21,655 nt of DNA from a virus, in IMG/VR virus record IMGVR_UViG_3300031608_000058, positions 1 through 21,655 of that record. The stretch is one strand, 5' to 3'. The notes beneath the pieces were generated by a model. The model worked only from the letters and a program-made list of their open reading frames with translations. It did no database searches and was not told the origin of the DNA. Positions 951 to 20,663 of this stretch are shown one piece after another. A program made the translations under genes and the position numbers. Position 1 is the first letter of the stretch. Each line of letters opens with the position of its first letter.

Positions 951-2363
951 ATGACAGCTGTCGTCACCGATAATTTAAAACATAGTATTCTAAAAACCCT
1001 ATTAGCAGATTATAACGGTGCTAGTAGCGAGTTTTATATTGGTTTGTCACGATCTGAATATTGGGATAGTAACGATGTTGCTATTGCTCCAGTAAATTCA
1101 AAACATGACATTATAGATTTTAAGTCACGATTACAAGCAGTAAAACAGGTTGAAGCTGTTAGTTTTGTTGTGCCTCGACAGGACTGGACATACGGTACAA
1201 TTTTTCCCCAGTGGGATGATAAGAGATCCGGCAGCTTAAGTTTAAGTAGGCGTTTCTATGTATTAACTGATAATTATGGAGTATATATTTGTTTAAGAAC
1301 TGGTAGAAATAAAGCAGGTGTTACGCAACCATCTCTTATAAAACCATCGTCGGCTAATGCTGATCCGTTTGAAACATCTGATGGATATGTATGGAAATTT
1401 TTATACACTGTTAGTGCATTAAAAGCTAATTTCTTTTTATCATCACAATATATGCCTGTTCATAGACAAGAGACTGAGCCAGACTCTAACTCGACCGGCA
1501 TTGAAATTAAACAATGGGAAATTCAAAATAACGCAGTTCCAGGTAGAATTGTCTCATTTGCTATGACAAATCAAGGCAGTGGTTACGGTACAGCTGGTCA
1601 ATTTCCTACTATTAGTGTTATAGGTGATGGCGAGCTTCGTTTTCCAGGAGCAGGTGATTCTGCAAATTTGATCCTAAGTTCAGTTATAGATTCTGACACT
1701 GGTAAGATTACAGCTATTAAGACAGATCCTATCGGAACCACATTAAATTATTTAGATAGTTATACTGTAGCAACGTTAACGTTATCCGGTGGTGGTGGTG
1801 ATAGTGCGCAAGCTCGACCAATAATTGGTCCAAATCCAGGATTTGGATTTGACCCAGTAATTGACTTAAAAGCAGATGCGTTAATGTTTAGAAGCAAGAT
1901 TTTAGAAACTGATAACGATTTTATTTTGTCACAGGACTTTAGGCAAATAGGTCTTATCAAAAATGTGCTAGCTGGTGATTCAACCGGCATATATCGTGCT
2001 TTAACTGGAATTGCAACGCATCATATGAAGTTATCTCAGAAAACTGTTGCGTTTAGTAAAGATAAAACTATTCAAGGTGTTAGCTCTGGTGCTAAAGGAT
2101 ATATCGATAATTTCGATTCAAGTGCTGCCTTAGGAACTAGAATATTTTATCATCAATCTCCTGAAACAGGATTTAAAGACTTTTTATCAAGTGAGACAAT
2201 TCAGGAAATCGATGGTAGTGGCGAAGGAACAATTGGAGATTCTGCCAATGTTACTGGTGAAGTAAATAAATTTAGTGGTGACGTATTGTATTTAGATAAC
2301 AGAACTGCAGTGCAGCGTACTGCAAATCAGTCTGAAGATATTAAAGTAATAATCCAATTATAA
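951..2363 (+). CDS. 8: Baseplate wedge subunit, T4 gp8-like
   Basis: This is a probable baseplate wedge protein of the gp8 family, which joins the wedge intermediate of T4-type baseplates. Three features recall T4 gp8: an N-terminal stretch with IGLSRSEYW near residue 30 (T4 has TFGRSEPW); a VPRQDW motif at 74-79 followed by DGYVWKFLY at 144-152 (T4 DGYVWEYLF); and a C-terminus at 443-470 containing GDVLYLDNR and ending in an EDIKVIIQL-type strand (T4 GEMIYMENR ... INILF). At 470 residues it is longer than T4 gp8 (334), with extra Gly/Ser/Asp-rich sequence in the middle (about 200-430). The ATG has a strong Shine-Dalgarno, AAGAGGA at 937-943, with a 7-base gap. It lies between structural genes. 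Confidence 0.85.
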   Translation: MTAVVTDNLKHSILKTLLADYNGASSEFYIGLSRSEYWDSNDVAIAPVNSKHDIIDFKSRLQAVKQVEAVSFVVPRQDWTYGTIFPQWDDKRSGSLSLSRRFYVLTDNYGVYICLRTGRNKAGVTQPSLIKPSSANADPFETSDGYVWKFLYTVSALKANFFLSSQYMPVHRQETEPDSNSTGIEIKQWEIQNNAVPGRIVSFAMTNQGSGYGTAGQFPTISVIGDGELRFPGAGDSANLILSSVIDSDTGKITAIKTDPIGTTLNYLDSYTVATLTLSGGGGDSAQARPIIGPNPGFGFDPVIDLKADALMFRSKILETDNDFILSQDFRQIGLIKNVLAGDSTGIYRALTGIATHHMKLSQKTVAFSKDKTIQGVSSGAKGYIDNFDSSAALGTRIFYHQSPETGFKDFLSSETIQEIDGSGEGTIGDSANVTGEVNKFSGDVLYLDNRTAVQRTANQSEDIKVIIQL

Positions 2364-7608: not shown

Positions 7609-7833
7609 ATGAAAAGACAGTATATACAGATTGAAGGTCAATCGGAATTAGTTAAAGATATTAGCTCTGGTGCTATTTTAAACGTCAATAACGATTCTAT
7701 AAATAAGGCTAGAGCTAGGAAAACTAGAGCAGCTGAAAAAGAAAAAGAACTTGTTGAATTAAAAAATGATGTAAATGAGATAAAACAGATGTTATCAGCA
7801 TTAACAAAGAAAATGGTAGAACAAAATGGCTAG
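7609..7833 (+). CDS. Small coiled-coil protein between structural genes
   Basis: This is a 74-residue, highly charged protein. Residues 1-33 begin MKRQYIQIEGQSELVKD; residues about 33-70 are rich in Lys, Glu and Ala with regularly spaced hydrophobic residues, giving a predicted coiled coil. It starts one base after the stop of the large structural gene and overlaps the next gene by 8 bases, so it is translationally coupled to both. Small proteins with an extended N-terminus and a coiled-coil C-terminus are common between the baseplate and fibre genes of marine T4-like phages. It may be a fibre adaptor or assembly factor, but that is inference from context. A TATAAATA octamer lies inside it (7698-7705). 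Confidence 0.75.
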   Translation: MKRQYIQIEGQSELVKDISSGAILNVNNDSINKARARKTRAAEKEKELVELKNDVNEIKQMLSALTKKMVEQNG

Positions 7834-9385
7834 AAAAGTACACGTAGATCTAAGCGACACAATTAATGGTTTTCGACTAAAAACTAATACTATTAGTAAT
7901 TTAATAGGCGACTTAGATAATCTTAGTGCTGAATATACTGGCTACGATTCAGATATAGTACAAGCTTTAAATTTTAGTAAAGATGTACGTCGTGCTTATA
8001 CTGCCTCAGGCGGAATTCTAAAGACTGCCCTTTCCGGAAACCTTACTGGAGATTCAAGTGGAGTATTTACGGTAGCGGGTGGTCACGGTTTAACTCAAGA
8101 AGCATCTGGTCTTAAATTAGAAGATATGCCAGCGAACACTGTTAAAGTAAGAGATGCAGGAACGGCTGGGGCATCATCAAATAAAGCTGTTATTGATGAG
8201 CAAATTTTAATTGGTGATGGAACTGGTTTCACATCTGCTGCTTTATCTCAAGATGTTCTCATGACAAATGCTGGTGTTGTTACAATTCAACCTGACGTTG
8301 TGACTAATGCTAAGCTTGCTAATATGGCAGCAGTGACAATGAAAGTAAATGCGACAGCTGCAGCAACTGATCCACAAGATTTAGTCATTACACCATATGG
8401 AATCCCTGTTAGAGCTGGCACTGGGCTTATTGCTCCTTTAACAGTTAACACTAGCACAGTAGTCGGGCGCACATCATCCGGTAATATTATATCAGCTCAA
8501 GTAGCTACAGATCAAATAGCTGATGATGCTGTGACTTATGGTAAAATACAAGACATTGTAACTGCAAATAGAGTTCTTGGTAAAACGTCAGCTGGAACAG
8601 TTGAAGAAGTACAAATCCAAACTGATATGATATCAGATGACCAAGTTACTAATGCTAAGCTTGCTAATATGCCAGCCAATTCAGTAAAAGTTGGAAACAG
8701 TGCGTCAGCGGCAGGTCCTTCGGATATTACAGTAGCAAACACTCAAATTCTAATTGGTGATGGTAGTGGTTTTACCGCCGCAGGATTATCCGGTCATGTT
8801 ACTATGACAAATGCTGGTGCGTGTACAGTTTCTGGAGGCGAAGCCGATTTTGTAAAAGTTGAGGAAAAAAATGACAATGTAAATTATCAAATACTGTTTA
8901 GTGATAATAATGGCACAGGTTATCAAAGACCTTATATTGATACTGACAACGCTCACTTAATGTATAATCCATCAACACAAACATTATCTTCCGGTACAAT
9001 TGCTGGTAATGCTTCGTCCGCAAACTTTGCTGACCTTGCAGAAAAATATACTACAAGCGAAGAGCATCCAACTGGAACAGTAATGATGGCATCATTCAAT
9101 GAAATTGAAGAAACTTCTCCCTGCACATCAAATGGAGTTCCGGTAGGCGTAATTTCAGCACAACCCGCTTATTTAATGAATGCGGGTGCTGATGGTCAAG
9201 CTTTAGGTCTTAAGGGAAGAGTTCCAGTAAGAGTAGTTGGTGCTGTTCATAAAGGTGATCCTGTGTATACACACCATAACGGCTGTGCTGGTAAAGAATT
9301 TAATGGCGCTATGATGGTAGGTGTTGCATTAGAATCATCTACTGCAGCTGAAGAAAAATTGATAGAATGTATCCTTAAAGTGTAA
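7826..9385 (+). CDS. Tail-fibre-like protein with internal repeats
   Basis: This 519-residue protein is probably a trimeric fibre. The N-terminal ~60 residues (MARKVHVDLSDTINGF) may be the attachment part. Residues about 97-345 are low-complexity beta repeats: a QILIGDGTGFTSAAL module near 126-140 and a QILIGDGSGFTAAGL module near 308-322, each followed by MTNAG, with VTNAKLANM twice. The C-terminus (about 405-519) begins DLAEKYTTSEEHPTGTVM and ends in a compact domain containing GVPVGVISAQPAYLMNAG and GLKGRVPVRVVGAVHKGDPV. That domain recalls the C-terminal domain of many marine phage fibres and, more loosely, the Peptidase_G2/IMC-type autoproteolytic domain. I see no catalytic residues that settle proteolysis. 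It overlaps the preceding gene by 8 bases. It lies just before the modifying-enzyme island and is a candidate substrate. Confidence 0.82.
   Translation: MARKVHVDLSDTINGFRLKTNTISNLIGDLDNLSAEYTGYDSDIVQALNFSKDVRRAYTASGGILKTALSGNLTGDSSGVFTVAGGHGLTQEASGLKLEDMPANTVKVRDAGTAGASSNKAVIDEQILIGDGTGFTSAALSQDVLMTNAGVVTIQPDVVTNAKLANMAAVTMKVNATAAATDPQDLVITPYGIPVRAGTGLIAPLTVNTSTVVGRTSSGNIISAQVATDQIADDAVTYGKIQDIVTANRVLGKTSAGTVEEVQIQTDMISDDQVTNAKLANMPANSVKVGNSASAAGPSDITVANTQILIGDGSGFTAAGLSGHVTMTNAGACTVSGGEADFVKVEEKNDNVNYQILFSDNNGTGYQRPYIDTDNAHLMYNPSTQTLSSGTIAGNASSANFADLAEKYTTSEEHPTGTVMMASFNEIEETSPCTSNGVPVGVISAQPAYLMNAGADGQALGLKGRVPVRVVGAVHKGDPVYTHHNGCAGKEFNGAMMVGVALESSTAAEEKLIECILKV
8303..8671 (+). repeat. Direct repeat inside the tail-fibre gene
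   Basis: A 24-base stretch is identical at 8303-8326 and 8648-8671 (both encode TNAKLANM). A 16-base stretch, ATGACAAATGCTGGTG, is identical at 8261-8276 and 8804-8819. These are nucleotide traces of duplicated fibre modules, which can recombine to change fibre length. Confidence 0.75.
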
Positions 9386-9427: not shown

Positions 9428-9955
9428 ATGATTAATAAATCTCAACTCATATCTGCACTTACTGCAAATCACATGTATGAACAAAATATGGTTTATGCTA
9501 TAGATGAGCAAGGCCGCGAGCAACTAATTACTAGCTTTAGTGATTTTTGCCAAGCGCAAACAAAAAATCATTCTATAAAAATTGAACGTATGGAAAATTT
9601 TAACTCAAAAATATATAAGCATTGTTGGAAAATAAAAACAGATTGGTTGCATAGTCAGCATGTGACATGTCATCTATTTTTTGCGAAAGCCGGAGCGTAT
9701 TCATTTGGTGTGCATACCGATCCTGATGACGTTATTATACATTGCTGTGAAGGCCATAAAACAATGATTGTAGATGGAACAACGTACACTATATGTTCAG
9801 GATCAGAATTACATATCCCAGCCAATACACCGCATCAAGCATTTAATGAAAGCGAAGCATTAACGCTAAGCTTTGGTTTAGAAAATTACACAGAGGATAA
9901 AATAAATAATGAACTGGCTGATGTATCTCAAGACCACGGAAACATGTCAGCTTAA
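9428..9955 (+). CDS. Cupin/JmjC-like putative Fe(II) hydroxylase
   Basis: This 175-residue protein has a single cupin fold. Motif 1 is GAYSFGVHTDPDDV at 89-102, with His96-x-Asp98 as the likely first two metal ligands. Motif 2 is GSELHIPANTPHQAFN at 125-140, which fits the cupin pattern G-x5-P-x-G-x2-H-x3-N with Asn for the second Gly and gives His136 as the third ligand. An HxD...H triad in a cupin is typical of JmjC/FIH-type 2-oxoglutarate oxygenases that hydroxylate protein side chains, so protein hydroxylation is a reasonable inference. A non-oxygenase cupin remains possible because no 2OG-binding residue can be assigned by eye. It opens the enzyme island and overlaps the radical SAM gene behind it by 47 bases, implying a joint function. 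Confidence 0.75.
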   Translation: MINKSQLISALTANHMYEQNMVYAIDEQGREQLITSFSDFCQAQTKNHSIKIERMENFNSKIYKHCWKIKTDWLHSQHVTCHLFFAKAGAYSFGVHTDPDDVIIHCCEGHKTMIVDGTTYTICSGSELHIPANTPHQAFNESEALTLSFGLENYTEDKINNELADVSQDHGNMSA

Positions 9956-10928
9956 CTGTGCACATTGTTTTACAAGTGGAAGAAGCGGACAAAAGATTTA
10001 TTGGAATCCATCTAAACTAATTGACTGGATTCAAAGATTCCGTGAAGAAAAACCATCGCCACATGACTCTGTTCATATGGAATTTCATGGAGGCGAACCT
10101 TTCTTAGTTCCAGTTGGTCAGATGCGAAAAGTGTATGACGCATGTGATGGTCTATGGGATCAAATGACATGGGGTGCTACAACTAATTTAGTTTTCAAAT
10201 TAAAAGATCAGCATATGGATTTTATTAAAGGTCCTCTTAATAATAGACTAGGCACGTCATGGGATCGTAAAATTAGATTTGAAAATAAAACCCAATACAA
10301 TCTCTGGCATAAAAATGTAAAAACGCTTTTAGCTGATGGTGTTACTATCCGTTTGTTTATTAGTCTTACAAAAGATACACTTGCTAAAGATCCTATAACA
10401 TTATTGAGATGGTGCAGACGACTTGGCGTACAAGAAGTTTCACTGGAAAGACTAACTAATAATGGTAGTGCAAGAAAAGCATCAGAAATCTTTCCAAGTA
10501 ATGCAGAACTCGATGCATACTTTTTAAAAATGCATATGCAAAGTGAAGAGCATGGTGCACGAGATTGGTTTGAAAATGACTTTCTAGAAAATGTCTATGC
10601 TAAGTTTGAAAAGACTATGACTACATGTGGAACATTTTGTAGAGATTGTGAACAAAAACTATTTACTATAAATGGTAATGGAACTATTGCAGGATGTCCA
10701 AATAGTGCACCTGAGCAAGCTTTTGGAAGTCTTGATGATTCTATTAATACCCTATTGAAAAGTCCAAAAAGAATACGTACTATATTAGAGGAAAAAATGC
10801 GTAATCCTAATTGTTTACAATGTCCAGTTTCTAGATTCTGTGGAGGTGATTGCCATCAATTAGGATGGGATGGTGATATTTGTGGCGCGCCAAAAAGTTT
10901 AATGATGGAACTCGCAAAACATGTATAA
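9909..10928 (+). CDS. Radical SAM/SPASM enzyme, peptide-maturase type
   Basis: This 339-residue radical SAM enzyme has an intact [4Fe-4S]-SAM motif, C13-QLN-C17-AH-C20, and a SAM-binding HGGEP at 60-64. It has an ERLTNNGSA segment near 180-188, of a kind common in SPASM proteins. Its cysteine-rich SPASM region has Cys240, 244, 247, 263, 302, 305, 311, 315 and 325, including the C-x2-C-x5-C-x3-C pattern at 302-315, enough for two auxiliary clusters. SPASM enzymes include sulfatase-maturing enzymes and makers of thioether or C-C crosslinks in RiPPs. The ATG at 9909 is preceded by AGAGGA at 9892-9897; an alternative Met is 12 bases later. It overlaps the cupin gene by 47 bases, and that overlap includes the codon for Cys13. 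It directly precedes the gene for the CHSS-repeat protein, making that the first candidate substrate. Confidence 0.9.
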   Translation: MNWLMYLKTTETCQLNCAHCFTSGRSGQKIYWNPSKLIDWIQRFREEKPSPHDSVHMEFHGGEPFLVPVGQMRKVYDACDGLWDQMTWGATTNLVFKLKDQHMDFIKGPLNNRLGTSWDRKIRFENKTQYNLWHKNVKTLLADGVTIRLFISLTKDTLAKDPITLLRWCRRLGVQEVSLERLTNNGSARKASEIFPSNAELDAYFLKMHMQSEEHGARDWFENDFLENVYAKFEKTMTTCGTFCRDCEQKLFTINGNGTIAGCPNSAPEQAFGSLDDSINTLLKSPKRIRTILEEKMRNPNCLQCPVSRFCGGDCHQLGWDGDICGAPKSLMMELAKHV

Positions 10929-10931
10929 ATA
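10924..10931 (+). promoter_or_regulatory. T4-type late promoter (TATAAATA) before the CHSS-repeat gene
   Basis: This exact TATAAATA overlaps the TAA stop of the radical SAM gene and lies 34 bases before the ATG of the CHSS-repeat protein. That gene also has a strong Shine-Dalgarno (AAGAGGA at 10946-10952, 5-base gap). The combination suggests high late expression, as expected of a structural protein. Confidence 0.6.
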
Positions 10932-10957
10932 TACCTATATAACGAAAGAGGAATGAA

Positions 10958-11521
10958 ATGGCCACATTAACAAATCCAATTAATGCGCAGAATATAATAG
11001 ATAGATTTGCAGATTATGCACCAGCCACTGCGAATTCTGGAATTGTTTGGGGCACCAACTCGGTTCCGTTTAGTGGATTTTCTACAAGCTATTTCGGTGG
11101 AACAACATCCGGCCGAAGTATTGGAATTACTGGAGCTACTATATCACAAAACCCCATCAATGCTTCTGTTATTAATACAGCAATTGAAAACGAAACTGCT
11201 GCATATACTCAAATTAGAAATTTAAATGCACAGCGAAATGTAACAGGTGAAACAAGTAATGTAGGTACATATCAGACTCCAGGCTTAATTTTTAATCAAA
11301 CACAAAAAGCTTATTTAAACAGTAGTTATATACAAACGTTAGCTGCAGCTGGAGTTACTCTAACTGCCGGTACTCAAATTAGTGTATCTGGGCTTGAAGC
11401 TAAATTTACTGATTTGCAAACAAGATTTAATTCGTTAGTATCTAATACTATTACTGTAACTGTTAATATTTGCCATTCAAGTTGTCATAGCAGCTGTCAT
11501 AGTTCGCGAGGAAGAAGATGA
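10958..11521 (+). CDS. CHSS-repeat protein, candidate modification substrate
   Basis: This 187-residue protein is not a family I can name. Residues 1-170 are rich in Thr, Asn, Ser, Gly and Ala, with a FADY motif near 17-20, a Gly/Ser/Thr stretch near 36-60 and probable beta structure near 160-171; this looks like a small virion or fibre protein. Residues 172-183 are three perfect Cys-His-Ser-Ser units, followed by RGRR at 184-187. The repeat holds every Cys and every His of the protein. The serine codons differ between units (TCA AGT, AGC AGC, AGT TCG), so the repeat is kept by selection on the protein and is not a fresh DNA duplication. CXXX repeats and His-x-Ser repeats are known targets of radical SAM peptide maturases, and radical SAM genes lie close on both sides. 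Metal binding at a fibre tip is the main alternative. Confidence 0.85.
   Translation: MATLTNPINAQNIIDRFADYAPATANSGIVWGTNSVPFSGFSTSYFGGTTSGRSIGITGATISQNPINASVINTAIENETAAYTQIRNLNAQRNVTGETSNVGTYQTPGLIFNQTQKAYLNSSYIQTLAAAGVTLTAGTQISVSGLEAKFTDLQTRFNSLVSNTITVTVNICHSSCHSSCHSSRGRR
11471..11518 (+). repeat. Three-unit CHSS codon repeat plus RGRR tail
   Basis: Three 12-base units at 11471-11506 each encode Cys-His-Ser-Ser, then CGA GGA AGA AGA encodes Arg-Gly-Arg-Arg. The His codon is CAT in all units, but the Ser and Cys codons vary. The purine-rich Arg/Gly codons also contain GAGGAA (11508-11513), the probable ribosome site of the next gene. Confidence 0.85.
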
Positions 11522-12165
11522 AAGTTATTGATGTTACTGCACCATTCAGTATTGAAGATCTGAAATTATATTTTGAAGATGATCAAACTTTTTATATGGT
11601 TGATTATGCGAATTCTCAATTACAAGGAACAAAACTATTAACATATCTCAGTAATCTAGAATTACCATGCAATATTGGTTTTACGGATCAGAAAGATTTT
11701 GATGATCTTACTAGAGAATATCTTTTAGCTAATTTTATTATAAGTGTTCCTATTCTTGAAGAAAGAGTAATTAGTTTATTATTACAAATGAAAGGTATTA
11801 GTGAGTTAACAGAAAAAGATTTTATTGATGATAACGTTGAAATACTTACTACTTGGGCCAAGAAATTAGATTCACTTTCGCTTTACAATTTATACACCGT
11901 TGAGTGTGATGAATTAAAAGACTATGTTAAATCATTTCCAGAAGATAACACAAAAGATTTAACTGGAATAAATTTTGTAAATTTGTTAAAATATGAAAGC
12001 TTTTATTTATTTTATGCCAATGTAATTGAAAATCATAAAACATATTATAAATCGTACTTTAATGAGTATATGTTTAAAGGAAATAATTTATTTAGCTATT
12101 GGGCAAATGTTAATAACCCAATGTTTTTACTAACAAGCGCAATCGCTACAGGAGAACAGTTATGA
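11518..12165 (+). CDS. Unrecognised protein coupled to the CHSS-repeat gene
   Basis: I do not recognise this 215-residue protein. It is acidic and rich in aromatic and aliphatic residues, looks globular and mostly alpha-helical, and has no signal peptide, membrane segment or catalytic motif that I can see. The N-terminus MKVIDVTAPFSIEDLKLYF could form a short beta-strand and helix. Its ATG overlaps the stop of the CHSS-repeat gene in an ATGA junction, and its Shine-Dalgarno GAGGAA (11508-11513) lies within the RGRR codons of that gene, so the two are translationally coupled. Its own stop overlaps the next start in the same way. Position suggests a partner of the CHSS-repeat protein, such as a chaperone or a recognition subunit for the modifying enzymes. 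That is inference only. Confidence 0.7.
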   Translation: MKVIDVTAPFSIEDLKLYFEDDQTFYMVDYANSQLQGTKLLTYLSNLELPCNIGFTDQKDFDDLTREYLLANFIISVPILEERVISLLLQMKGISELTEKDFIDDNVEILTTWAKKLDSLSLYNLYTVECDELKDYVKSFPEDNTKDLTGINFVNLLKYESFYLFYANVIENHKTYYKSYFNEYMFKGNNLFSYWANVNNPMFLLTSAIATGEQL

Positions 12166-13292
12166 TACATCTGTTTAAGAAAATTTATGTAACAACAGAT
12201 AATATCATCGATCCAAAATTTGATCGTATTGTTGTATCACAGAATAACGGTTTTAATCTTTTAGAAGATCTCCAAAAAATCTTATCTGGTCAACTTATCG
12301 CATATGGACTTGAATGGGATGATATTCTAGGAAAAGATAAAACGTTTAAAGATGCTACAACTCTATTTGATGAATTAGCTACTAAATGTGATACTACAAA
12401 TAAAAGAATAATTATTTATTGTGACAATGCCTCGCTGCAATTTATTATGTCTACTTGGTATAAATTCATTTTAAAAACTCCTACAGCTGATGCTGTAGAA
12501 TCATTACTAAAGGCGCATGCTTTTAAATTCAATACATTTTTCAGAGGCAGGTTTTCGAGTAACAACGCAAAATTGGGATCTGGTGAAATTTTAAAAGTAG
12601 AAAATTTCAAGAGCATTTATGCTGGTGTTAAAGCTCCAACTGCGGCTAAGAAAAAAGCGTTTATGGCAAAATATAAAAATGCAATAAGTGTTGAACATCT
12701 ACTAGCAAACTACCTTAACGACAAATCTTCAAAAGTCGAATTAAAAAGCGTAGTCAGACCTCTGCTGAAAAAGGTATTTGAACAATATCTTTACGAATTA
12801 AAAGAAGTATTTTTCCAACATTTCTTAACTAAATCTTTTGCTGATAAATTAGGTTTAGACAAAACTTACACATTAAATAATATTAATGACATTTTTACAG
12901 ATACTTCTAAATTTGCTCAACTGTTTATTAAAGACGATATGTGGTCGATAAAATATCTAAGTGGTGCTTCTAGTAGTGACAATGTAATATTCGAAAATAT
13001 TTCTGATTCAGATCTCAATACTATTAAAGAGTTCGTAGCCATCATAGAAGGTCAATGGTCTGATTTTACTTTAAGAGATGATAGCATATTAGAATTCTTA
13101 CCAGCAATTAATACTGAATTAACAGATGAGCTGTTAGACAAAATTATCTTAATTGAATCATCGTATGACAAAGAACCTGAAAAATTCTTTGCTTTAGAAC
13201 TTGAAACGGTAAATCATTATTTAGTTCACTCACTACTAAATGCTAACTCTGTTTCTGATAAAGCAACTATTGGTAAATACATAACAGCCTAA
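12162..13292 (+). CDS. Unrecognised 376-residue protein of the substrate operon
   Basis: I do not recognise this protein. It appears soluble, rich in Lys, Asp, Leu and Phe. A short N-terminal strand (MIHLFKKIYVTTDN) and a hydrophobic strand RIIIYCDNAS near 80 hint at an alpha/beta fold in the first ~110 residues. The middle (about 165-240) is Lys-rich and helical, and the C-terminal ~120 residues are acidic and helical. No cofactor or nuclease motif was found. The ATG shares an ATGA junction with the preceding stop and has a strong AGGAGA site at 12150-12155. With the two genes before it, it forms a tightly coupled trio. By position it could be an assembly, scaffold or substrate-presenting protein for modification of the CHSS-repeat protein, but nothing in the sequence proves this. 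Confidence 0.7.
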   Translation: MIHLFKKIYVTTDNIIDPKFDRIVVSQNNGFNLLEDLQKILSGQLIAYGLEWDDILGKDKTFKDATTLFDELATKCDTTNKRIIIYCDNASLQFIMSTWYKFILKTPTADAVESLLKAHAFKFNTFFRGRFSSNNAKLGSGEILKVENFKSIYAGVKAPTAAKKKAFMAKYKNAISVEHLLANYLNDKSSKVELKSVVRPLLKKVFEQYLYELKEVFFQHFLTKSFADKLGLDKTYTLNNINDIFTDTSKFAQLFIKDDMWSIKYLSGASSSDNVIFENISDSDLNTIKEFVAIIEGQWSDFTLRDDSILEFLPAINTELTDELLDKIILIESSYDKEPEKFFALELETVNHYLVHSLLNANSVSDKATIGKYITA

Positions 13293-13325
13293 ATATTTTT
13301 TAATATATAATGTATAGAATGAAAT

Positions 13326-14996
13326 ATGATTATAGCATTTGTCAATCCTCCTCACGCTGACTGGTCATTAGCAAATAACTTTACATTTTTATTGATGCAA
13401 AGTTACTATTCTCGTTTTGGTAAATACAGCGATAAAATACAATGGTTAGAATCACCATATAAATGGAATAGTTATAAATCATATGATGAAGTAATAGATG
13501 ATATAATTGCAGCAGATGTAATTATGTTTTCTTCTTACACTTGGAATTATATGATATGCGATGAAATTTCCAATAAAATTAAAAATAGCTATCCAGAAAA
13601 AATACTAGTTTTAGGTGGTCCACATATTGGAACCAATGAACCTGAGCTATTAGCATCGCGTCCTCAGTACGATTTAATTTGTAGACCTACCAAACCAGGT
13701 GAGCCATTTATGGCTGAACTTATCGATCAGTTTATTGAAAACAGAATAGATCCAACAAGTATTCCATGGGAATTGCGATCTGATGTAAAAGTCATACATG
13801 ATTTGTCAAAAGAAGATTATTCAGTATACGAAAATCATTTAGAATATCTTACAAAATTACTTAAATACGCTCGTGATAATAAAATGGAACCGTTTATTGT
13901 TTTAGAGACAACAAGAGGTTGTCCTTACAAGTGTGTATTCTGTGAATGGGGTGGAGGTATTAATACAAAGATTTATAAGAAATCCTTGGACATAGTAAAA
14001 CGTGATATCAATGCTATGTTAAAAGCCGGTTATAGATCTGCTTATTTAAATGATGCAAACTTTGGAGCTTTTTTTGAAAGAGACTTTGAAATATTTGAAT
14101 ATGCTTGGACAAATGGTTTTAATTTAACTGATATTTCTACTATGAAATCTAAGGATTTAAATAGAAGAAAAAAATTAATCGATAAGTATTTTGAAATTGT
14201 TGGAACAAATTACACTTCTCCAAATATGGAAAATGGAAAAGATATGTGGAGCGAGATGGCCAATATATCGATAGTTCCATCAGTGTCGATTCAAAGCAGT
14301 TCTGACATTGCAATGAAAATAGCTGAAAGAGTTGATTTAAATACAGAAGATAAATTAGAATTAAGTAAACACATTAATGAGCAATGTTCAAAGCATGGGT
14401 TTCCGATACCTAATTTAGAAATGATCCTTGCAATGCCAGGTTCTACGATAGATGACTTTTATAATGAAATGGAATATATCTGGAATTTTAAATCGTTTGG
14501 TTCTTACAGACACGATTATATGTTTCTTCCTGATTCAGCACTTAACTCTCAAGAATATAAAATTAAATATGATATTCGAACAGTTGAAGTTTACACTGAT
14601 ATTGCGGATGAACAGGGAATTGATAGCTGGAATAATTTGTACAAAAATAAAAAATCGTATTTCAAAACAATATCATCGTGCTTTTCGTTTACAATTGAAG
14701 AAATGCATGAAATGTGGTTTATGAATAGTGCTGGAAATTATTTATTGCAGCACTTTTATCCTATGCTTGAAAGTAGTGTATCGCCATCAGTCTTTACTAA
14801 AAAAGCATATAAAGCTATAAATAAATTAGATAGTTGGGATGATATACATTCTGAAATAAGAGATATATTTAATCCAAATTCTCAACCAAAAAGCATTAAA
14901 GTTTTAAATCAAGAGTTCAGAGCAAATACTATAAATAAATTTATAGAAAAAAATAGACATATAATTATGTCAGAGGTAAGTAAAGAATGTCTGTAG
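13326..14996 (+). CDS. B12-binding-like radical SAM enzyme
   Basis: This 556-residue protein has a class B (cobalamin-type) layout. Residues 1-140 form a Rossmann-like domain with NPP at 7-9, a strand and helix around VIMFSSYTWN (65-74) and LVLGGPHIG (94-102), as in B12-binding domains. The usual DxHxxG lower-ligand motif is absent, as in many class B members. The radical SAM core starts with C199-PYK-C203-VF-C206, followed by YLNDANFG at 239-246 and a LEMILAMPGST segment later. Known members methylate unactivated carbon or phosphorus, or do other radical chemistry, on natural products and RiPPs; the substrate here is unknown. It begins 33 bases after the preceding gene without a clear ribosome site and overlaps the next radical SAM gene by 10 bases. 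Family assignment is strong, while bound B12 is inferred. Confidence 0.85.
   Translation: MIIAFVNPPHADWSLANNFTFLLMQSYYSRFGKYSDKIQWLESPYKWNSYKSYDEVIDDIIAADVIMFSSYTWNYMICDEISNKIKNSYPEKILVLGGPHIGTNEPELLASRPQYDLICRPTKPGEPFMAELIDQFIENRIDPTSIPWELRSDVKVIHDLSKEDYSVYENHLEYLTKLLKYARDNKMEPFIVLETTRGCPYKCVFCEWGGGINTKIYKKSLDIVKRDINAMLKAGYRSAYLNDANFGAFFERDFEIFEYAWTNGFNLTDISTMKSKDLNRRKKLIDKYFEIVGTNYTSPNMENGKDMWSEMANISIVPSVSIQSSSDIAMKIAERVDLNTEDKLELSKHINEQCSKHGFPIPNLEMILAMPGSTIDDFYNEMEYIWNFKSFGSYRHDYMFLPDSALNSQEYKIKYDIRTVEVYTDIADEQGIDSWNNLYKNKKSYFKTISSCFSFTIEEMHEMWFMNSAGNYLLQHFYPMLESSVSPSVFTKKAYKAINKLDSWDDIHSEIRDIFNPNSQPKSIKVLNQEFRANTINKFIEKNRHIIMSEVSKECL
14930..14937 (+). promoter_or_regulatory. TATAAATA inside the B12 radical SAM gene, possible late promoter
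   Basis: This exact octamer lies 57 bases before the ATG at 14987, a spacing like that of the intergenic copies. A second copy lies at 14816-14823. Both are within coding sequence, so chance is possible, but 14930 is well placed to drive the SPASM/oxygenase operon. Confidence 0.4.
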
Positions 14997-16132
14997 CGCC
15001 TGTTAATCCAGCCCCACTTGATTTTGATATATACAAAATCTTAGGAAGCAAGATCACTCGATCAAGTGAGCTTGTTATAATATTATTTGAACATTGTAAT
15101 TTAAAATGTGTATTCTGTCCACAAGATCATAACTCAATGGTTGGAGCTACTCGAGAAGAAATTTTAGCAAAAAGCGATACTGTTGCGAAATTCATTAATA
15201 ACTCACCAAGATCAAAAGACTATAAATTACATTTATTAGGTGGAGAATTATTTGAAGATCTATGGATTGAAAAAGGCTTTTTAGACGTATATGACGAATT
15301 TATGGATTTAGTCAGATCCAAGATTAACATCGGTGACAAAAGAATTTATTTTAATTATCTTACTAATTTCATGTTTGACAAAAAGAATTCAGATAAGGTT
15401 ATGGACTTTTGTAATAAACACGATGTAAAGCTTTCAACTTCTTATGATCCAAGAGGTAGATTTAATAAAGGTCAACTAGACATATTCTTAGAAAATGTTG
15501 AGACTTTTAAAGATTATATTAGAAATGTTTCGATTGTTACTACTAGCCAAAATGTACAAACAATTATAAAGAGTAACGATAAAAGCACATTTGATTATTT
15601 GTATAAAAACTTTCCAGTTGATTTTGATGCTTATATGCCATCGCCACTAATTAAAGCAGACTCAAAATTAATTCCTAAAGATAGTGAGCTATTAGCATTT
15701 AATAAATATTTAATAGATAACTATCCTGAGTGTGAAAACATGGACGCATTTCATGATCCATTGAATCAAACTGGTGCAATGATGTGCACAAGAGGTAATT
15801 CAATAACTATTCAGCCTGATGGTTCATCACCTGGTGGATGTTGTGGTGTAGCATATCAACGAGATAAAAAAACTGGTGAAACACCTTTTGAAACAGGAGA
15901 GATAGTAGAAAAGTTTTTAAAAAAATACGATTGTTTTGCATGTGATTATTATGAAAACTGTCCATTCACATGTTTTGTAAAAGCTGATATGCCAGGTGAT
16001 CACAACGATATGGAAGAATGCGTTTTTAAAGAAACGTTTAATTATGTTAAAAAAACAAAGGGATTCAAACCAAAACGTGATGGTGAAGATGATCTATCAT
16101 ACGGATTTAGACAAAAGGTAAAAATGCTGTGA
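14987..16132 (+). CDS. Radical SAM/SPASM enzyme
   Basis: This 381-residue enzyme has the cluster motif C37-NLK-C41-VF-C44, a GGEL SAM-binding motif at 85-88 and a C-terminal cysteine set at 267, 285, 286, 316, 319, 325, 329 and 345. That set includes C-x2-C-x5-C-x3-C at 316-329, so it is a SPASM protein likely to carry auxiliary iron-sulfur clusters. A QPDGSSPGGCCG segment at 277-287 is the usual strand-loop before the second half of SPASM. Such proteins usually act on peptides or proteins. The ATG overlaps the end of the B12 radical SAM gene by 10 bases and has AGAGG at 14972-14976. It is followed by an oxygenase gene whose GTG start overlaps its stop (GTGA), so enzyme and oxygenase are co-translated. 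Confidence 0.88.
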   Translation: MSVAPVNPAPLDFDIYKILGSKITRSSELVIILFEHCNLKCVFCPQDHNSMVGATREEILAKSDTVAKFINNSPRSKDYKLHLLGGELFEDLWIEKGFLDVYDEFMDLVRSKINIGDKRIYFNYLTNFMFDKKNSDKVMDFCNKHDVKLSTSYDPRGRFNKGQLDIFLENVETFKDYIRNVSIVTTSQNVQTIIKSNDKSTFDYLYKNFPVDFDAYMPSPLIKADSKLIPKDSELLAFNKYLIDNYPECENMDAFHDPLNQTGAMMCTRGNSITIQPDGSSPGGCCGVAYQRDKKTGETPFETGEIVEKFLKKYDCFACDYYENCPFTCFVKADMPGDHNDMEECVFKETFNYVKKTKGFKPKRDGEDDLSYGFRQKVKML

Positions 16133-16674
16133 AAAATGGTTGGAAAATGGATGATGGGTTTTATACAGAAAATAACGTCCTGGCGTTTCAATATTTAGAA
16201 GATACTATTCCTAATATTAAATGGCTTAGAGGTATTGGTAATAGAAAAGATTATAGATTCCCTTTAAATTATTATATGTTGGGTATGCGAAAGAAAATGT
16301 TAATGACTGCTGATTATCTTTTTAATCAGTATTTAAAACCATATTCAGAAAAACAAGATTTGATTTATTATCATTGTTGGAATGGCACCGAACAAACTTC
16401 ATGTCATTGGCATAATGATTTTTGTGAGGGTGCAAATATAATGTTTCTTCTGTATTTTACGGATATGAATATGGACGCTGGTGGTGAAATTATGTTTAGA
16501 AATATATCACAAAATAATAGAATCACAGCCTTTCATTTACCTCAAAAATATGATGTAGTAGTAGGTAGCCAAGATGAACAGTTCGAACACAGAGTTGAAC
16601 ATTTCAGAGATCCTGATATGCACAGAATCACTATGAATTTTGGGTTTAACGTTAGCAATTCGCCATGGACTTAA
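16129..16674 (+). CDS. 2OG-Fe(II) oxygenase, prolyl-4-hydroxylase-like (canonical HxD)
   Basis: This 181-residue double-stranded beta-helix oxygenase has H95-N-D97 in SCHWHNDF, then GGEIMF at 118-123, a distal His at 154 (FEHRVEHF) and Arg166 in HRITMNFGF as the 2-oxoglutarate anchor. This is the full facial triad plus co-substrate Arg of the P4H-like 2OG-Fe(II) family, which hydroxylates proline or other residues of proteins. The start is GTG at 16129, overlapping the preceding stop as GTGA; Met7 at 16147 is an alternative. The end overlaps the next radical SAM gene by 10 bases. Of the three P4H-like genes in the island, this is the only one with canonical His-x-Asp, so it may have a separate job or origin. 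Confidence 0.85.
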   Translation: MKNGWKMDDGFYTENNVLAFQYLEDTIPNIKWLRGIGNRKDYRFPLNYYMLGMRKKMLMTADYLFNQYLKPYSEKQDLIYYHCWNGTEQTSCHWHNDFCEGANIMFLLYFTDMNMDAGGEIMFRNISQNNRITAFHLPQKYDVVVGSQDEQFEHRVEHFRDPDMHRITMNFGFNVSNSPWT

Positions 16675-17699
16675 TTGTTAAACCAACCGAACTATGTAAT
16701 TTCAAATGTTCGTTTTGTTCATCATCTAAAATTACGTTTGAAGACAATACAGCTTCTCTTGATCTAAATAAGATATTTAAGTTTTTAAAACGTTTTCCAG
16801 AGACTCAAACAATTATTGTTAATGGTGGTGATCCATTAATGATGAAGCCAAATTATTATTGGAAAATTATAGAGTATCTTGATAAGCATGATCTACCTGC
16901 ATCAATATCACTTACAACAAATTTATATCCGTTTCTTATGAAACCAATGAAATGGAAAGAACTTTTTAATCATCCTCGAGTTGGTGTAGCTACATCGTTT
17001 CAATATGGTGGTGGAAGATTAAAAGGTGATTATAGTGAATTTACAGAAGAAGATTTTTGGAAGTGTTCAGATGCAGTGCTCGAACATGTTGGGTATAGAC
17101 CCACATTCATAGCAGTCATTGTTGAAGAGAATGAAGATACTCATATTAAGACAGTTGAACTTGCAAAGAAAATGGATGTAGTATGTAAAGTAAATTATGC
17201 TATGGCATCAGGTTCTCAGTCTGCGCCTTACCAGTTATCAAAAATATATGAGAAATACGTTGAAATATGGAAAGCTGGATTAAGCGATTGGGAACATAAC
17301 ACTCAACAAATGATGGTTCGATTAAGAGGAGAATCTACTATATGTCCACAAACAAGAACATGCGATTCTGGTATTCGAACACTTCAACCTGAAGGTGACT
17401 ACTATTCATGTGGTGCATTTGGTGATGATTTAGATAAGGCTATTGATTTTGATTATGAAATGAGTGGTGGGTTTTCAACTCCTCTTGCAACAGATTTAAA
17501 TTTAATGAGTTTAAAAAATGCATGTTATACTTGTCCAATGTTTGAAATTTGTAATGGATGTAAAAAAACTGTTAAAGATTTAAAACAGCATAATATGGTA
17601 GAAGATCATTGCAAACATATGAAGACTTTAGCAGCTGATATAATCAGTATAAATAGCATCAGTAGACAATTGACGCCGTATGAGAGGGAATACGCATGA
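16665..17699 (+). CDS. Radical SAM/SPASM enzyme
   Basis: This 344-residue enzyme starts almost directly with its cluster motif, C11-NFK-C15-SF-C18, followed by NGGDP at 53-57. C-terminal cysteines lie at 227, 233, 249, 287, 290, 296, 299 and 316, with C-x2-C-x5-C-x2-C at 287-299, so it has a SPASM or near-SPASM auxiliary-cluster domain. The short N-terminus and NFK/NFR cysteine loop resemble the 18307 enzyme, and the two are probably distant paralogues. It overlaps the oxygenase before it by 10 bases and shares an ATGA junction with the oxygenase after it. Its substrate is unknown; the SPASM domain and setting point to a peptide or protein. Confidence 0.87.
   Translation: MDLIVKPTELCNFKCSFCSSSKITFEDNTASLDLNKIFKFLKRFPETQTIIVNGGDPLMMKPNYYWKIIEYLDKHDLPASISLTTNLYPFLMKPMKWKELFNHPRVGVATSFQYGGGRLKGDYSEFTEEDFWKCSDAVLEHVGYRPTFIAVIVEENEDTHIKTVELAKKMDVVCKVNYAMASGSQSAPYQLSKIYEKYVEIWKAGLSDWEHNTQQMMVRLRGESTICPQTRTCDSGIRTLQPEGDYYSCGAFGDDLDKAIDFDYEMSGGFSTPLATDLNLMSLKNACYTCPMFEICNGCKKTVKDLKQHNMVEDHCKHMKTLAADIISINSISRQLTPYEREYA
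17648..17655 (+). promoter_or_regulatory. TATAAATA inside a radical SAM gene, possible late promoter
   Basis: This octamer lies 48 bases before the ATG at 17696. It sits in the 14-base string CAGTATAAATAGCA (17645-17658), which recurs exactly in the intergenic promoter region at 20206-20219. Sharing the flanking bases makes chance less likely than for the octamer alone. Confidence 0.5.
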
Positions 17700-18307
17700 T
17701 AAAAACTATTTTTCCAATAAAAATGTTACATGAGTTGCATAATATTAATGAAGAAGAAAGTAGTACACTTAATTCAGTATGCCAGGCAATATTTAGAAAT
17801 CATTTAGCTATGGCCGGTCTTTCATATCAAGATGGTGGAGATGATGGAGTACACATCCCACTTTTTACCGATGACAATATTAAAAATTATAATGAAATTA
17901 AAATTTTACATGATTTTTTTGCAAAGTCATTTTTAAAACTAGCTAATGAATATGACGAATCAATTACACACACTGAAATTTTAGAACGTATGGAGCAGAC
18001 CACTGGAAGATTGCCGTTTATGAGAAATGGTGATTATAAAGGTTTGCATTGTCATAGCGGTGCTTCGATGGTTGCGGTTTATTATTTAGACTGTGTCGAT
18101 AATGACAAAGATGGAGGCAAATTAATTTTTCATGATCCGGCATTTAACCAGGTTATAAAAACAAGACCTAAATCTAAAATGTCTATTGAGACTGAAAAAA
18201 ATACAATTATTATTGTTCCGGCTCATGTATGGCATGAAGTAACTCCTTATTGTGGTGAAGAAGATAGACTCGCAGTAGTAATGAATATTTCCTTTCCATC
18301 TAGGTAA
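17696..18307 (+). CDS. 2OG-Fe(II) oxygenase, P4H-like with HxH motif
   Basis: This 203-residue oxygenase has a metal-site region GLHCHSGASMVAVYYL at 117-132, GGKLIFHDPA at 140-149, a distal WH at 179-180 and Arg191 in DRLAVVMNISF. The pattern (HxHSGA, then GGxL...DP, then a late His and Arg) matches the phage-type putative 2OG-Fe(II) oxygenases (Pfam 2OG-FeII_Oxy_5-like). The first motif reads His118-x-His120 where many relatives have His-x-Asp; whether His120 replaces Asp as a ligand cannot be told here. It shares an ATGA junction with the preceding radical SAM gene and has a strong GAGAGGGA ribosome site at 17682-17689. Its stop overlaps the next start by one base. It resembles the 19578 oxygenase around HxHSGA and GGxL...DP. 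Confidence 0.83.
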   Translation: MIKTIFPIKMLHELHNINEEESSTLNSVCQAIFRNHLAMAGLSYQDGGDDGVHIPLFTDDNIKNYNEIKILHDFFAKSFLKLANEYDESITHTEILERMEQTTGRLPFMRNGDYKGLHCHSGASMVAVYYLDCVDNDKDGGKLIFHDPAFNQVIKTRPKSKMSIETEKNTIIIVPAHVWHEVTPYCGEEDRLAVVMNISFPSR

Positions 18308-19215
18308 TGATTGTATCGATTAATCCGTCATATTTTTGTAACTTTAGATGTGATTTTTGTTACCTATCTACTAAGCAACTTGGTGATCAGAAACAAATTT
18401 CATTCGATAAACTAGATGAGTTGTTATCTCAAGTACCGGATATAGAGCACATCGATCTATATGGCGGTGAAGTCGGTGCGATGAAGAAATCGTATTTTTA
18501 CGGTATTAAAGATGTTATAAGAAAATATTATTCAGGTGAAATTAGCATTAACACTAATTACTCTATGATGCATCCAGGCTTCTATGATGATGATGTGTAT
18601 CTTTCTGTATCATATGATTTTGAAGCAAGAGAAAAGTCAGAACTTGTCTTTAATAATATGCTGATGAGTACTGTACCTATTGCAGTTTTGGTTCTAGCTT
18701 CTCCAAAGGTGCTAGAAAAAGATGTATCTGAAATGATTAATATGTTGAATATGTGTTCGTCAATTACGTCTGTTGAGATTAAACCATATTCAATAAATCA
18801 AGCAAATGCTCATAATGTGACGCACAAAGACTTTGAAGATTTTGTTATAAAGTGGCTTAAGTTAAAAGATACAATGAAGTTTCAATTTGTAAATGAAGAT
18901 AGAATTATAGAATCAGCGAAAGGAAGATATAATGCATTTTCGGATGATCATATATACATCACTCCTTCTGGCAAATTTGGTGTCTTGGAATTTGATGACG
19001 AAGATAAAGAATTCTTTCTTGAATTGGATTCTTGGGAACAATACATTGATTGGACAAACAAAGAAAAAGAAGAAATGATAAGTCCTATATGTGCTTCATG
19101 CACATATTTTGGAAACTGCTTAACAGAGCATTATCGATATGTTAAAGATTTAGATAATAGTTGTAATGGATATAAAGGATTATTGGATTGGTATCATGAA
19201 AGAATGGCAAGTTAA
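18307..19215 (+). CDS. Radical SAM enzyme with reduced (twitch-like) C-terminus
   Basis: This 302-residue radical SAM protein has C11-NFR-C15-DF-C18 and YGGEV at 52-56. The C-terminal region has only Cys262, 265, 271 and 286 (C-x2-C-x5-C...C). The cysteine expected after the DDHIYITPSGKFG strand is missing (that strand continues VLEF), so it probably binds one auxiliary cluster where full SPASM proteins bind two. It is shorter and more divergent than the other SPASM-type enzymes here. The start overlaps the preceding oxygenase stop by one base (TAATG) with only a weak AGG nearby, implying translation by reinitiation. It is followed by a small unrecognised gene and another oxygenase. Peptide or protein modification is inferred from family and context. 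Confidence 0.82.
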   Translation: MIVSINPSYFCNFRCDFCYLSTKQLGDQKQISFDKLDELLSQVPDIEHIDLYGGEVGAMKKSYFYGIKDVIRKYYSGEISINTNYSMMHPGFYDDDVYLSVSYDFEAREKSELVFNNMLMSTVPIAVLVLASPKVLEKDVSEMINMLNMCSSITSVEIKPYSINQANAHNVTHKDFEDFVIKWLKLKDTMKFQFVNEDRIIESAKGRYNAFSDDHIYITPSGKFGVLEFDDEDKEFFLELDSWEQYIDWTNKEKEEMISPICASCTYFGNCLTEHYRYVKDLDNSCNGYKGLLDWYHERMAS

Positions 19216-19600
19216 ACAAGAAGTTTATCATAGATTAAATAAAGATCATACAGACGATTTGAATAAAGTAGAAATAGTTTTTGATGATAATCAAGAGGTC
19301 ATTATTAAAAATGCTATTCTTCACTTTAATGAGAAAGTAGATGAGTGGCTATATCCAGCTAAGAGCTACGTTGTAGCGATATGTTATGCTCATTGGATTA
19401 GTAAAGATTTTAACGAAGATTTTTATGATCTGTTAAATGATCCAATGCTTTTAGCAGGTAATGATCCGCATTTTAAAACATATGAAAACAGTAAAGAAAT
19501 ATACGATAGAGTACTTAACAATATAGATTGGCCATTGATGGTAATTCATGGTATGGTTAGTGACATAAAAGGATATTATGATGTTGAAATTGGGTATTAA
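19196..19600 (+). CDS. Unrecognised small protein between radical SAM and oxygenase genes
   Basis: I cannot assign a function. From the ATG at 19196 it is 134 residues; an upstream in-frame ATG at 19166 would add 10 residues and overlap the radical SAM gene by 50 bases. I prefer 19196 because a 20-base overlap fits this compact operon better, although neither start has a well-spaced ribosome site. The protein is acidic and soluble, with many aromatics: a WLYPAKSYVVAICYAHWIS segment, then DFYDLLNDPMLLAGNDPHF. It may be a single helical domain. No metal or nucleotide motif is visible. It sits inside the radical SAM/oxygenase operon and could be an adaptor or binding protein for one enzyme. Confidence 0.68.
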   Translation: MKEWQVKQEVYHRLNKDHTDDLNKVEIVFDDNQEVIIKNAILHFNEKVDEWLYPAKSYVVAICYAHWISKDFNEDFYDLLNDPMLLAGNDPHFKTYENSKEIYDRVLNNIDWPLMVIHGMVSDIKGYYDVEIGY

Positions 19601-20144
19601 TCAATGTTGGTCAACACCAATATATAAAACTCAAATTACTTCAGACCAATGTGAAGAATTAGTTCAAGAGGTTTTGCTTAGTACTAATATTATGAAACCG
19701 CAAGCTGAATTTGATAGTGGCTCACTCACAGATAGAATTCCTTTGTTAAAAGATTTAGCTATAGAAAAATATTCGGAATTTTTTAAAGAAGTATTTAATA
19801 GTAATCTAAATGATATATCTCATGGTTTTAGTTCATGGTTAACTGGATCTCAAAAAGGATATTCTATGAATATTCATAATCATTCAGGAGCTCAATTTGC
19901 TGCGGTGTTTTATGTAATTGCTGATGATGTAGATAAGGGTGGAGAACTAGTAGCATACGATCCAAGAGCAAATGCTAACAGAGGTTATTTCGGTAAAACT
20001 GCTGAAATGTTTAACCCTATTGAATATGCGCCTAAAACTGGTGATGTAATAATTATGCCAGGATATGTTTATCATTTAGTGAAAACCTATCAAGGCGGTA
20101 TTAGACTAGCTATTCCAGTTGATATGTTTCTTAGTAATGATTAG
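19578..20144 (+). CDS. 2OG-Fe(II) oxygenase, P4H-like with HxH motif
   Basis: This 188-residue oxygenase begins with a GINQCWSTPIYKTQI segment typical of the phage 2OG-FeII_Oxy_5-like group. Its metal site reads MNIHNHSGAQFAAVFY (His100-x-His102), then GGELVAYDPRAN at 121-132, GDVIIMPGYVYH with the distal His at 166, and Arg176 in GIRLAIPVD as the likely 2OG anchor. It is closest within the window to the 17696 enzyme. Two adjacent ATGs (19578, 19581) are possible starts; AAAAGGA at 19567-19573 is spaced 4 bases from the first and 7 from the second, which favours 19581. It overlaps the preceding small gene by 20-23 bases. It is the last enzyme of the island, followed by about 130 bases with late promoters. 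Confidence 0.83.
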   Translation: MMLKLGINQCWSTPIYKTQITSDQCEELVQEVLLSTNIMKPQAEFDSGSLTDRIPLLKDLAIEKYSEFFKEVFNSNLNDISHGFSSWLTGSQKGYSMNIHNHSGAQFAAVFYVIADDVDKGGELVAYDPRANANRGYFGKTAEMFNPIEYAPKTGDVIIMPGYVYHLVKTYQGGIRLAIPVDMFLSND

Positions 20145-20276: not shown

Positions 20277-20663
20277 ATGGCGCATTACGAAGATATAGAA
20301 ATCGATCAAGGAACTGATGTTGTAATTCAGTTAGAACTATATAATCCAGACGGAACAAGAAAAACTTTACTTAACTGGGATTCAGATTTAGGAAGCTTTC
20401 ATAATAATTATGACATGACCGGCAAGATTAAAAAAAGTTATAACTCATCAGATTCTGCAGTTCTATTTGGATGCACCGCATACAATCCACAAAATAAAGA
20501 AAATATTTTAGAGCTATCTTTAACTAATGTACAAACCGATGCAATGCGCGCAGGTCGATTTGTGTATGATGTTGAGATAGCATCTACCGATAGCGATGGC
20601 CTTATAACAGTAGAACGCATTTTACAAGGAAATTTGACATTAGTACCCTCGGTCACTAGATAG
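20277..20663 (+). CDS. Small virion/fibre-associated protein
   Basis: This 128-residue, beta-rich protein begins with a DIEIDQGTDVVIQLELYNPDG segment and later has a KIKKSYNSSDSAVLF stretch, LSLTNVQTDAMRAGRFVYDVEI at about 79-100 and a C-terminus ending LVPSVTR. This matches my memory of small conserved structural proteins that lie before tail-fibre genes in marine T4-like phages, and it looks like an immunoglobulin-like or BppU-N-like beta-sandwich. A fibre-base or connector role is inferred. The ATG has AAGGGA at 20264-20269 with a 7-base gap, and two late promoters precede it. Confidence 0.78.
   Translation: MAHYEDIEIDQGTDVVIQLELYNPDGTRKTLLNWDSDLGSFHNNYDMTGKIKKSYNSSDSAVLFGCTAYNPQNKENILELSLTNVQTDAMRAGRFVYDVEIASTDSDGLITVERILQGNLTLVPSVTR

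Follow-up and report, generated by a model that had tools for sequence, protein, structure and literature searches.

What do five radical S-adenosylmethionine (rSAM) enzymes and four oxygenases, encoded side by side within the tail module of a T4-like phage, act upon? The array that raises this question occupies positions 9428-20144 of IMG/VR record IMGVR_UViG_3300031608_000058, a 21,655-base virus record analysed over its full length (hereafter the window). A sequence-only reading had proposed that the phage modifies its tail or fibre proteins. Of this proposal, a protein-modification cassette inside the tail module is retained; its target, on genomic evidence, is not the tail and fibre proteins in general but one dedicated protein ending in Cys-His-x-Ser units. 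We consider it probable that the array encodes a viral maturation pathway resembling those of ribosomally synthesized and post-translationally modified peptides (RiPPs), with a single dedicated substrate whose modified C-terminus is kept on a folded virion protein.

The candidate substrate, the product of gene 10958-11521, terminates in CHSSCHSSCHSSRGRR-COOH; its gene lies 3' of the first rSAM gene and 5' of the second. Its three repeat units are written in different codons (TGC CAT TCA AGT, TGT CAT AGC AGC and TGT CAT AGT TCG), indicating selection on the protein and not on a DNA repeat. The protein matches no Pfam or NCBIfam family, and its match to PHROG 35144 is limited to the last 26 residues. 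In the AlphaFold model (predicted local distance difference test, pLDDT, 85.7), helices and a β-sheet form the body and the last strand runs into a tail predicted to be disordered, and hence accessible to enzymes. The model matches the folds of a 178-residue viral protein (E 6.8e-12), an uncultured-phage protein (E 1.3e-10) and a 296-residue protein of phage Atu_ph07 (E 4.6e-8) in BFVD, suggesting that bodies beyond the reach of BLAST are related. Weak fold similarity to the body was also seen in three BFVD proteins of 504-660 residues from one phage, Myoviridae sp. ctijX18 (A0A8S5USJ7, A0A8S5USJ8 and A0A8S5USV2).

The association between this tail and the enzymes was assessed in two ways. Searching IMG/VR DNA with the pattern (CH..)3R.RR plus stop returned at least 120 stretches; in 117 of the 120 matches listed, the tail (CHxS)3RxRR is the exact C-terminal end of an open reading frame, the rest of the protein being variable. 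A cassette rSAM gene lies in the stored DNA of 110 of 116 pattern loci; five of the other six are short or have the gene at an edge, and the sixth (L114) carries the conserved genes P and U (Table 1). The second search, independent of the motif, used the first rSAM of the array, rSAM_A (alignment A1): among the best 80 of 361 relatives, a (CHxx)3RxRR-COOH protein is encoded next downstream in all 72 loci with more than 700 bases downstream, its start codon lying in most cases between -26 and +29 nt relative to the stop codon of rSAM_A. Upstream, a cupin/JmjC_2-like gene directly precedes rSAM_A in 77 of 79 related loci. Fifty-one rSAM_A loci that extend 9.9 kb or more in the downstream direction were treated as complete. 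Each contains rSAM_A, rSAM_B, rSAM_D, P and the substrate, 49 contain rSAM_C, 50 some 2-oxoglutarate (2OG) oxygenase, 45 the small protein T and 29 the B12-dependent rSAM, for 4-6 rSAMs and 1-5 oxygenases or cupins per cassette. rSAM A-D, P and the substrate thus form the core, to which the B12-rSAM and individual oxygenases add optional tailoring; whether a locus has the B12-rSAM shows no obvious relation to its tail sequence. In 45 of the 51, the genes run in the order rSAM_A, tailed protein, P, rSAM_B, C, D, T, and the position in the tail module is the same in nearly all related T4-like loci. Since this gene order recurs in dozens of other viruses, the array is not a chance assembly. Independent scattering of the enzymes, which the sequence-only reading had named as the outcome that would speak against it, is thus the opposite of what gene order shows, namely joint inheritance (72/72 and 45/51). 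Among 55 aligned substrate homologues, 33-92% identical to that of the window, 10 of 11 invariant columns lie in the tail, although the pattern search itself imposes part of this conservation (C, H, R) and the unbiased figure is the 72/72.

The substrate gene itself varies in architecture. In some viruses the body carries a Gly_rich_2 insert; in one of them (L224, 11016-12384), the gene is split in two: the N-terminal half is joined to a Gly_rich_2 domain (308 residues), and a separate C-terminal half of 140 residues carries the tail. An intron was considered for this split gene and rejected, the insert being the Gly_rich_2 domain. The same spacing or C-terminal half as in L224, where the gene was read out, occurs in L013, L097, L221, L222 and L226. 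One locus (L036, 8105-8878) has a tail of four units, CHSNCHSNCHSNCHTNRSRR. A second architecture combines two tandem (CHxS)3RGRR proteins of about 126 residues with a run of divergent rSAM_E-like proteins (L006, L029, L038, L047, L057, L071, L078, L081, L090 and L091), and sometimes adjoins standard cassette enzymes (L047, L073, L090).

The enzymes of the array are those that the sequence-only reading had recognized. All five rSAM proteins contain CxxxCxxC; PF04055 exceeds its cut-off in rSAM_C and rSAM_D, falls just under it in the B12-rSAM and is weak in rSAM_A and rSAM_B, and PHROG 1802 ('radical SAM') matches rSAM_A to D (E 6.5e-59 to 1.6e-30). The four others are putative Fe(II) enzymes: a cupin/JmjC_2-like protein, two 2OG-Fe(II) oxygenases with Pfam matches above cut-off (2OG_a) and a third, 2OG_b, which lacks such a match and is assigned by its motif and weak 2OG matches. 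The inventory of nine enzymes was incomplete, however, as it passed over the substrate gene together with P, U and T, which belong to the same array. As described, all genes lie on the + strand, mostly with overlapping start and stop codons, between a fibre-like gene and a tail-fibre-assembly-like gene, and homologues of gp8 and of a baseplate wedge protein adjoin the array. Most of the array (window positions 10001-20000) has a G+C content of 0.29-0.33, lower than the 0.33-0.40 of the tail genes upstream, a hint that the two differ in origin. A search for RNA families in the window found none, and Pfam gives no match to an RRE-type recognition domain.

Table 1. Features of the window and of related loci in predatory bacteria (positions in the window unless a locus number is given).
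Feature	Position	Strand	Remarks
Baseplate wedge	2-871		Upstream flank
gp8-like	951-2363		Upstream flank
Tail protein, 1742 aa	2379-7607		Upstream flank
Fibre-like protein	7826-9385	+	C-terminal Peptidase_G2-like chaperone region; adjoins cassette in most related loci
Cupin/JmjC_2-like Fe(II) enzyme	9428-9955	+	First cassette gene; Cupin_2 E 6.9e-8, JmjC_2 E 7.1e-8, both above cut-off
rSAM_A, SPASM radical-SAM	9909-10928	+	CxxxCxxC at C13; just 5' of tailed protein; PHROG 1802 E 6.5e-59; TIGR04085 above cut-off
Candidate substrate, 187 aa	10958-11521	+	Predicted folded body of ~170 aa and C-terminal (CHSS)3RGRR tail
C-terminal tail of candidate substrate, 16 residues	11471-11518	+	CHSSCHSSCHSSRGRR
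P (PHROG 20767), conserved partner	11518-12165	+	PHROG 20767 E 9.9e-52; 51/51 complete loci
U, conserved but divergent protein	12162-13292	+	45/51 complete loci; homologues L003:13643, L004:14433
B12-binding radical-SAM, optional member	13326-14996	+	CxxxCxxC at C199; N-terminal B12-binding domain; B12-binding E 8.4e-7, Radical_SAM E 1.7e-6, each just under cut-off; 29/51 complete loci
rSAM_B with SPASM-like Cys	14987-16132	+	CxxxCxxC at C37; PHROG 1802 E 1.6e-30; 51/51 complete loci
2OG_b, putative Fe(II)/2OG oxygenase	16129-16674	+	HND...H (HxD...H) motif; weak PHROG 19592 and PADLOC 2OG matches
rSAM_C, SPASM-like	16665-17699	+	CxxxCxxC at C11; PF04055 E 1.9e-9; PHROG 1802 E 4.1e-56; 49/51 complete loci
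2OG_a oxygenase 1	17696-18307	+	PF13759 (2OG-FeII_Oxy_5) E 7.1e-10
rSAM_D	18307-19215	+	CxxxCxxC at C11; PF04055 E 7.3e-7; 51/51 complete loci
T (PHROG 20737), conserved small protein	19166-19600	+	PHROG 20737 E 1.2e-37; 45/51 complete loci
2OG_a oxygenase 2	19578-20144	+	Last array gene; PF13759 (2OG-FeII_Oxy_5) E 2.8e-10
PHROG 1084/tail-fibre-assembly-like	20277-20663	+	3' of cassette
N_methyl + Peptidase_S74 fusion	L237 16214-17251	-	
N_methyl + Peptidase_S74 fusion	L130 5955-7142	-	
N_methyl + Peptidase_S74 fusion	L242 13505-14542	+	
N_methyl + Peptidase_S74 fusion	L243 9628-10920	+	

Comparison with known maturases places the enzymes near, and outside, several peptide-modifying families. 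Besides CxxxCxxC, rSAM_A has eight invariant C-terminal Cys in alignment A1 and scores 34.7 bits against TIGR04085 (cut-off 27), as befits a SPASM maturase with auxiliary-cluster Cys; rSAM_C stays below this cut-off (21.7 bits), and the others are assigned by motif only. Like the His-Xaa-Ser (HXS) system, the cassette combines repeated His-x-Ser units with more than one rSAM/SPASM maturase per gene group, but the window rSAMs score far too low for membership (35.9 versus 370 bits for HxsB, 28.6 versus 267.9 for HxsC). It further differs in its Cys-His-x-Ser units ending in RxRR, a precursor with no NCBIfam match, the viral tail context, and the presence of 2OG oxygenases and a B12-rSAM. The Cys at every fourth residue and the SPASM rSAM recall the CXXX-repeat maturases (TIGR04115, 30.1 versus 350 bits) and the PapB/ranthipeptide maturases (38.4 versus 340 bits), from which the system departs, beyond these scores, by its long carrier protein, predicted to be folded, and its multi-gene viral cassette. 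The B12-rSAM scores 83 bits versus 700 for the KedN5 subfamily. A further resemblance is to the cyclophane-forming rSAMs (DynA, FxsB, XyeB, AmcB): DynA is the best NCBIfam similarity of both rSAM_A (43 bits) and rSAM_C (52 bits), albeit far from its cut-off of 450, and the aromatic-x-residue geometry is that of His-x-Ser. In 50 distinct tails from enzyme-found loci, the residue two positions after His is Ser 127 times, Asn 21 times, Ala twice and Gly never (n=150), counts whose weight is lessened by kinship among the tails, and the residue directly after His is Gly at 28 of 150 positions. Likewise, in 78 representatives Gly never occurs at His+2, where Ser, Asn or Ala stands and in rare cases Gln, Lys or Arg, and His+1 is often Gly. 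Glycine is the only residue without a Cβ. The pattern fits what a His-to-Cβ(i+2) cyclophane would need, which is a hint and not a proof.

Altogether, these data suggest the following scheme. The tail-module protein, a folded body with a flexible C-terminal tail, would be the substrate of rSAM_A, B, C and D, the optional B12-rSAM and the cupin/2OG oxygenases, acting on the three Cys-His-x-Ser units. We regard it as very likely that these rSAMs and oxygenases work on the tail. A His-to-Cβ(His+2) cyclophane in each unit is one concrete candidate for the chemistry. The body and the RxRR end would serve recognition, perhaps with P, U and T as helper proteins. With neither leader cleavage nor export, the modified tail would remain on the protein, which would be assembled into the virion near the baseplate or fibres so that its tip, hardened chemically or cross-linked and possibly binding metal, faces the host surface. 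The protein is likely to be in the virion with its tail retained, since no protease, exporter or immunity gene accompanies the cassette. The roles in receptor binding or resistance to proteolysis put forward in the sequence-only reading find nothing in the analysis that shows either.

Besides the part of the tail invariance that stems from the search pattern, several points weigh against this scheme. Modification of the tail is predicted from genomic evidence. Every rSAM of the window lies far below all NCBIfam equivalog cut-offs, so that no reaction can be read off. The tailed protein has no relative in the PDB by sequence or by fold; nor does P match a PDB fold (E<=0.001), its model reaching a pLDDT of 93.5. 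Finally, membership of the virion is deduced: the Atu_ph07 proteome study (PMC6102473) gives 131 virion proteins, concentrated in clusters of coding sequences, all 46 long, that include 170-215, and gp170 (AUZ94952), the Atu_ph07 tailed protein, is by its place in this cluster a candidate virion protein.

An alternative is that the enzymes modify large tail-fibre or baseplate proteins generally, the Cys-His protein being a mere neighbour or a metal-binding structural tip. The cassette does sit between fibre genes, and Cys/His tails can bind metal unmodified, as do the HxH iron sites in the tips of T4 fibres. Yet the flanking fibre genes vary among phage groups whereas the tailed protein is always beside rSAM_A, and versions of the cassette in Bdellovibrionota, which are devoid of a phage tail module, keep the tailed protein; we therefore judge this alternative improbable. 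Another alternative is a true RiPP pathway, in which the tail would be cut off to yield a free peptide (antimicrobial, metallophore or superinfection agent). A ribosomal precursor with a conserved C-terminal core beside rSAM/SPASM enzymes and oxygenases is indeed what a RiPP cluster in the broad sense contains, and, given this dedicated tailed protein, the cassette resembles a RiPP pathway far more than the sequence-only reading allowed when it set the two apart. That reading was right that protease, exporter and immunity genes are absent: none occurs in the window or in the bacterial loci examined, and no genes for leader removal or export were seen in the other cassettes inspected. In addition, what precedes the tail is predicted to be a folded domain (with the Gly_rich_2 insert in some viruses) and not a leader, and the location is fixed in the tail module, making release of a peptide very unlikely. 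A role in small-molecule or nucleotide metabolism, in line with the usual filing of genes of this kind as auxiliary metabolic genes (e.g. PMC7150976), or in a viperin-like defence or counter-defence island is hardly credible: the weak viperin/pVip matches over the rSAM core (NCBIfam 25.5 versus 180 bits) do not extend past the generic first ~100 residues and were rejected, and both readings are opposed by the SPASM-type C-termini and by how strictly the enzymes are linked to a proteinaceous Cys-His tail.

The cassette also occurs in named phages. rSAM_A and P match the same seven GenBank records, corresponding to six phages (Atu_ph07, Phosso, SURPRISE13, FLC6, FLC8 and pPa_SNUABM_DT01), in which the cassette genes are annotated as hypothetical or rSAM; the phage genome papers leave the enzymes unassigned. 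In the five phages read out, the protein right after the first rSAM is a 'hypothetical' one of 178-306 residues ending in FCHSSCHASCHNSRSRR, YCHTSCHASCHSSRSRR, VCHSSCHTSCHGSRGRR (two phages) or ICHTSCHTSCHSARGRR. A tblastn search with the tailed protein gave no match in the named phages because its repetitive, diverged body hides the homology, and the link came via the neighbouring enzymes. The B12-rSAM has no homologue among them. Two dihydrofolate-reductase-like genes lie within the cassettes of the Burkholderia phages SURPRISE13 (L003, 18406-19583) and FLC6 (L005, 18319-19532), and Phosso has an extra rSAM_B-like gene about 4 kb 3' of its cassette (L002, 23591-24508).

Outside viruses, the tail was found in predatory bacteria. 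Among 30 pattern matches in GTDB contigs, 14 were out-of-frame or internal chance matches and were discarded; 16 are true tails, nine of them in Bdellovibrionota. The five Bdellovibrionota loci checked are all chromosomal, with neighbours such as SecA, cytochrome oxidase, pyruvate kinase, thiolase and MetG. These cassettes adjoin a conserved protein of about 200 residues and fusion genes (Table 1) that join a prepilin-like N-terminus (N_methyl) with a tail-fibre chaperone, Peptidase_S74, and possibly encode pilus-borne fibres; when Pfam was run on four of the fusion genes, one showed S74 alone. Homology of the ~200-residue protein to the phage Peptidase_G2-like fibre, suspected by eye, was not supported (hhalign probability 0.6%). 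Bdellovibrio bacteriovorus uses S74 tail-fibre-like adhesins on its prey, and its mosaic adhesive trimer (MAT) fibres are likewise predatory-bacterial fibre proteins with this phage chaperone domain (PMC10769870); here, by contrast, S74 is fused to a prepilin motif and adjoins an rSAM cassette, and the MAT paper makes no reference to rSAM enzymes. The Bdellovibrionota rSAM_C proteins branch as a single clade (support 99/96) amid the viral sequences, and the cassette is present in only 5 of 129 genomes of one class, a sporadic occurrence that looks like transfer between viruses and predators. It is plausible, by analogy, that the tailed protein acts where the Gram-negative envelope is contacted, because that task is just what the phage tail module and the pilus/fibre genes of the predators have in common.

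The enzymes belong to known superfamilies; what appears undescribed is the proposed RiPP-like rSAM chemistry on the retained tail of a virion protein, unusual in its scale. A text search of the open-access literature yielded no paper that contains the tail motif and none in which rSAM enzymes mature a virion protein, an absence that is weak evidence. More tentatively, and with some doubt, we propose that phages and predatory bacteria share an undescribed class of tip, a virion- or pilus-linked (CHxS)3 tail that 4-6 rSAMs and several oxygenases would make cross-linked and possibly metal-bearing, to engage or breach the Gram-negative envelope. If so, maturases of structural proteins would account for many of the rSAM and 2OG genes that are called 'auxiliary metabolic' in environmental viruses. 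A large set of viral rSAM/2OG genes now filed as metabolic or hypothetical gains a defined candidate substrate and motif, in a system that is present in phages already isolated and cultured (Atu_ph07, Phosso, FLC6/S13, DT01) and from which new peptide chemistry could come. Its sharing with Bdellovibrionota ties phage adsorption to bacterial predation.

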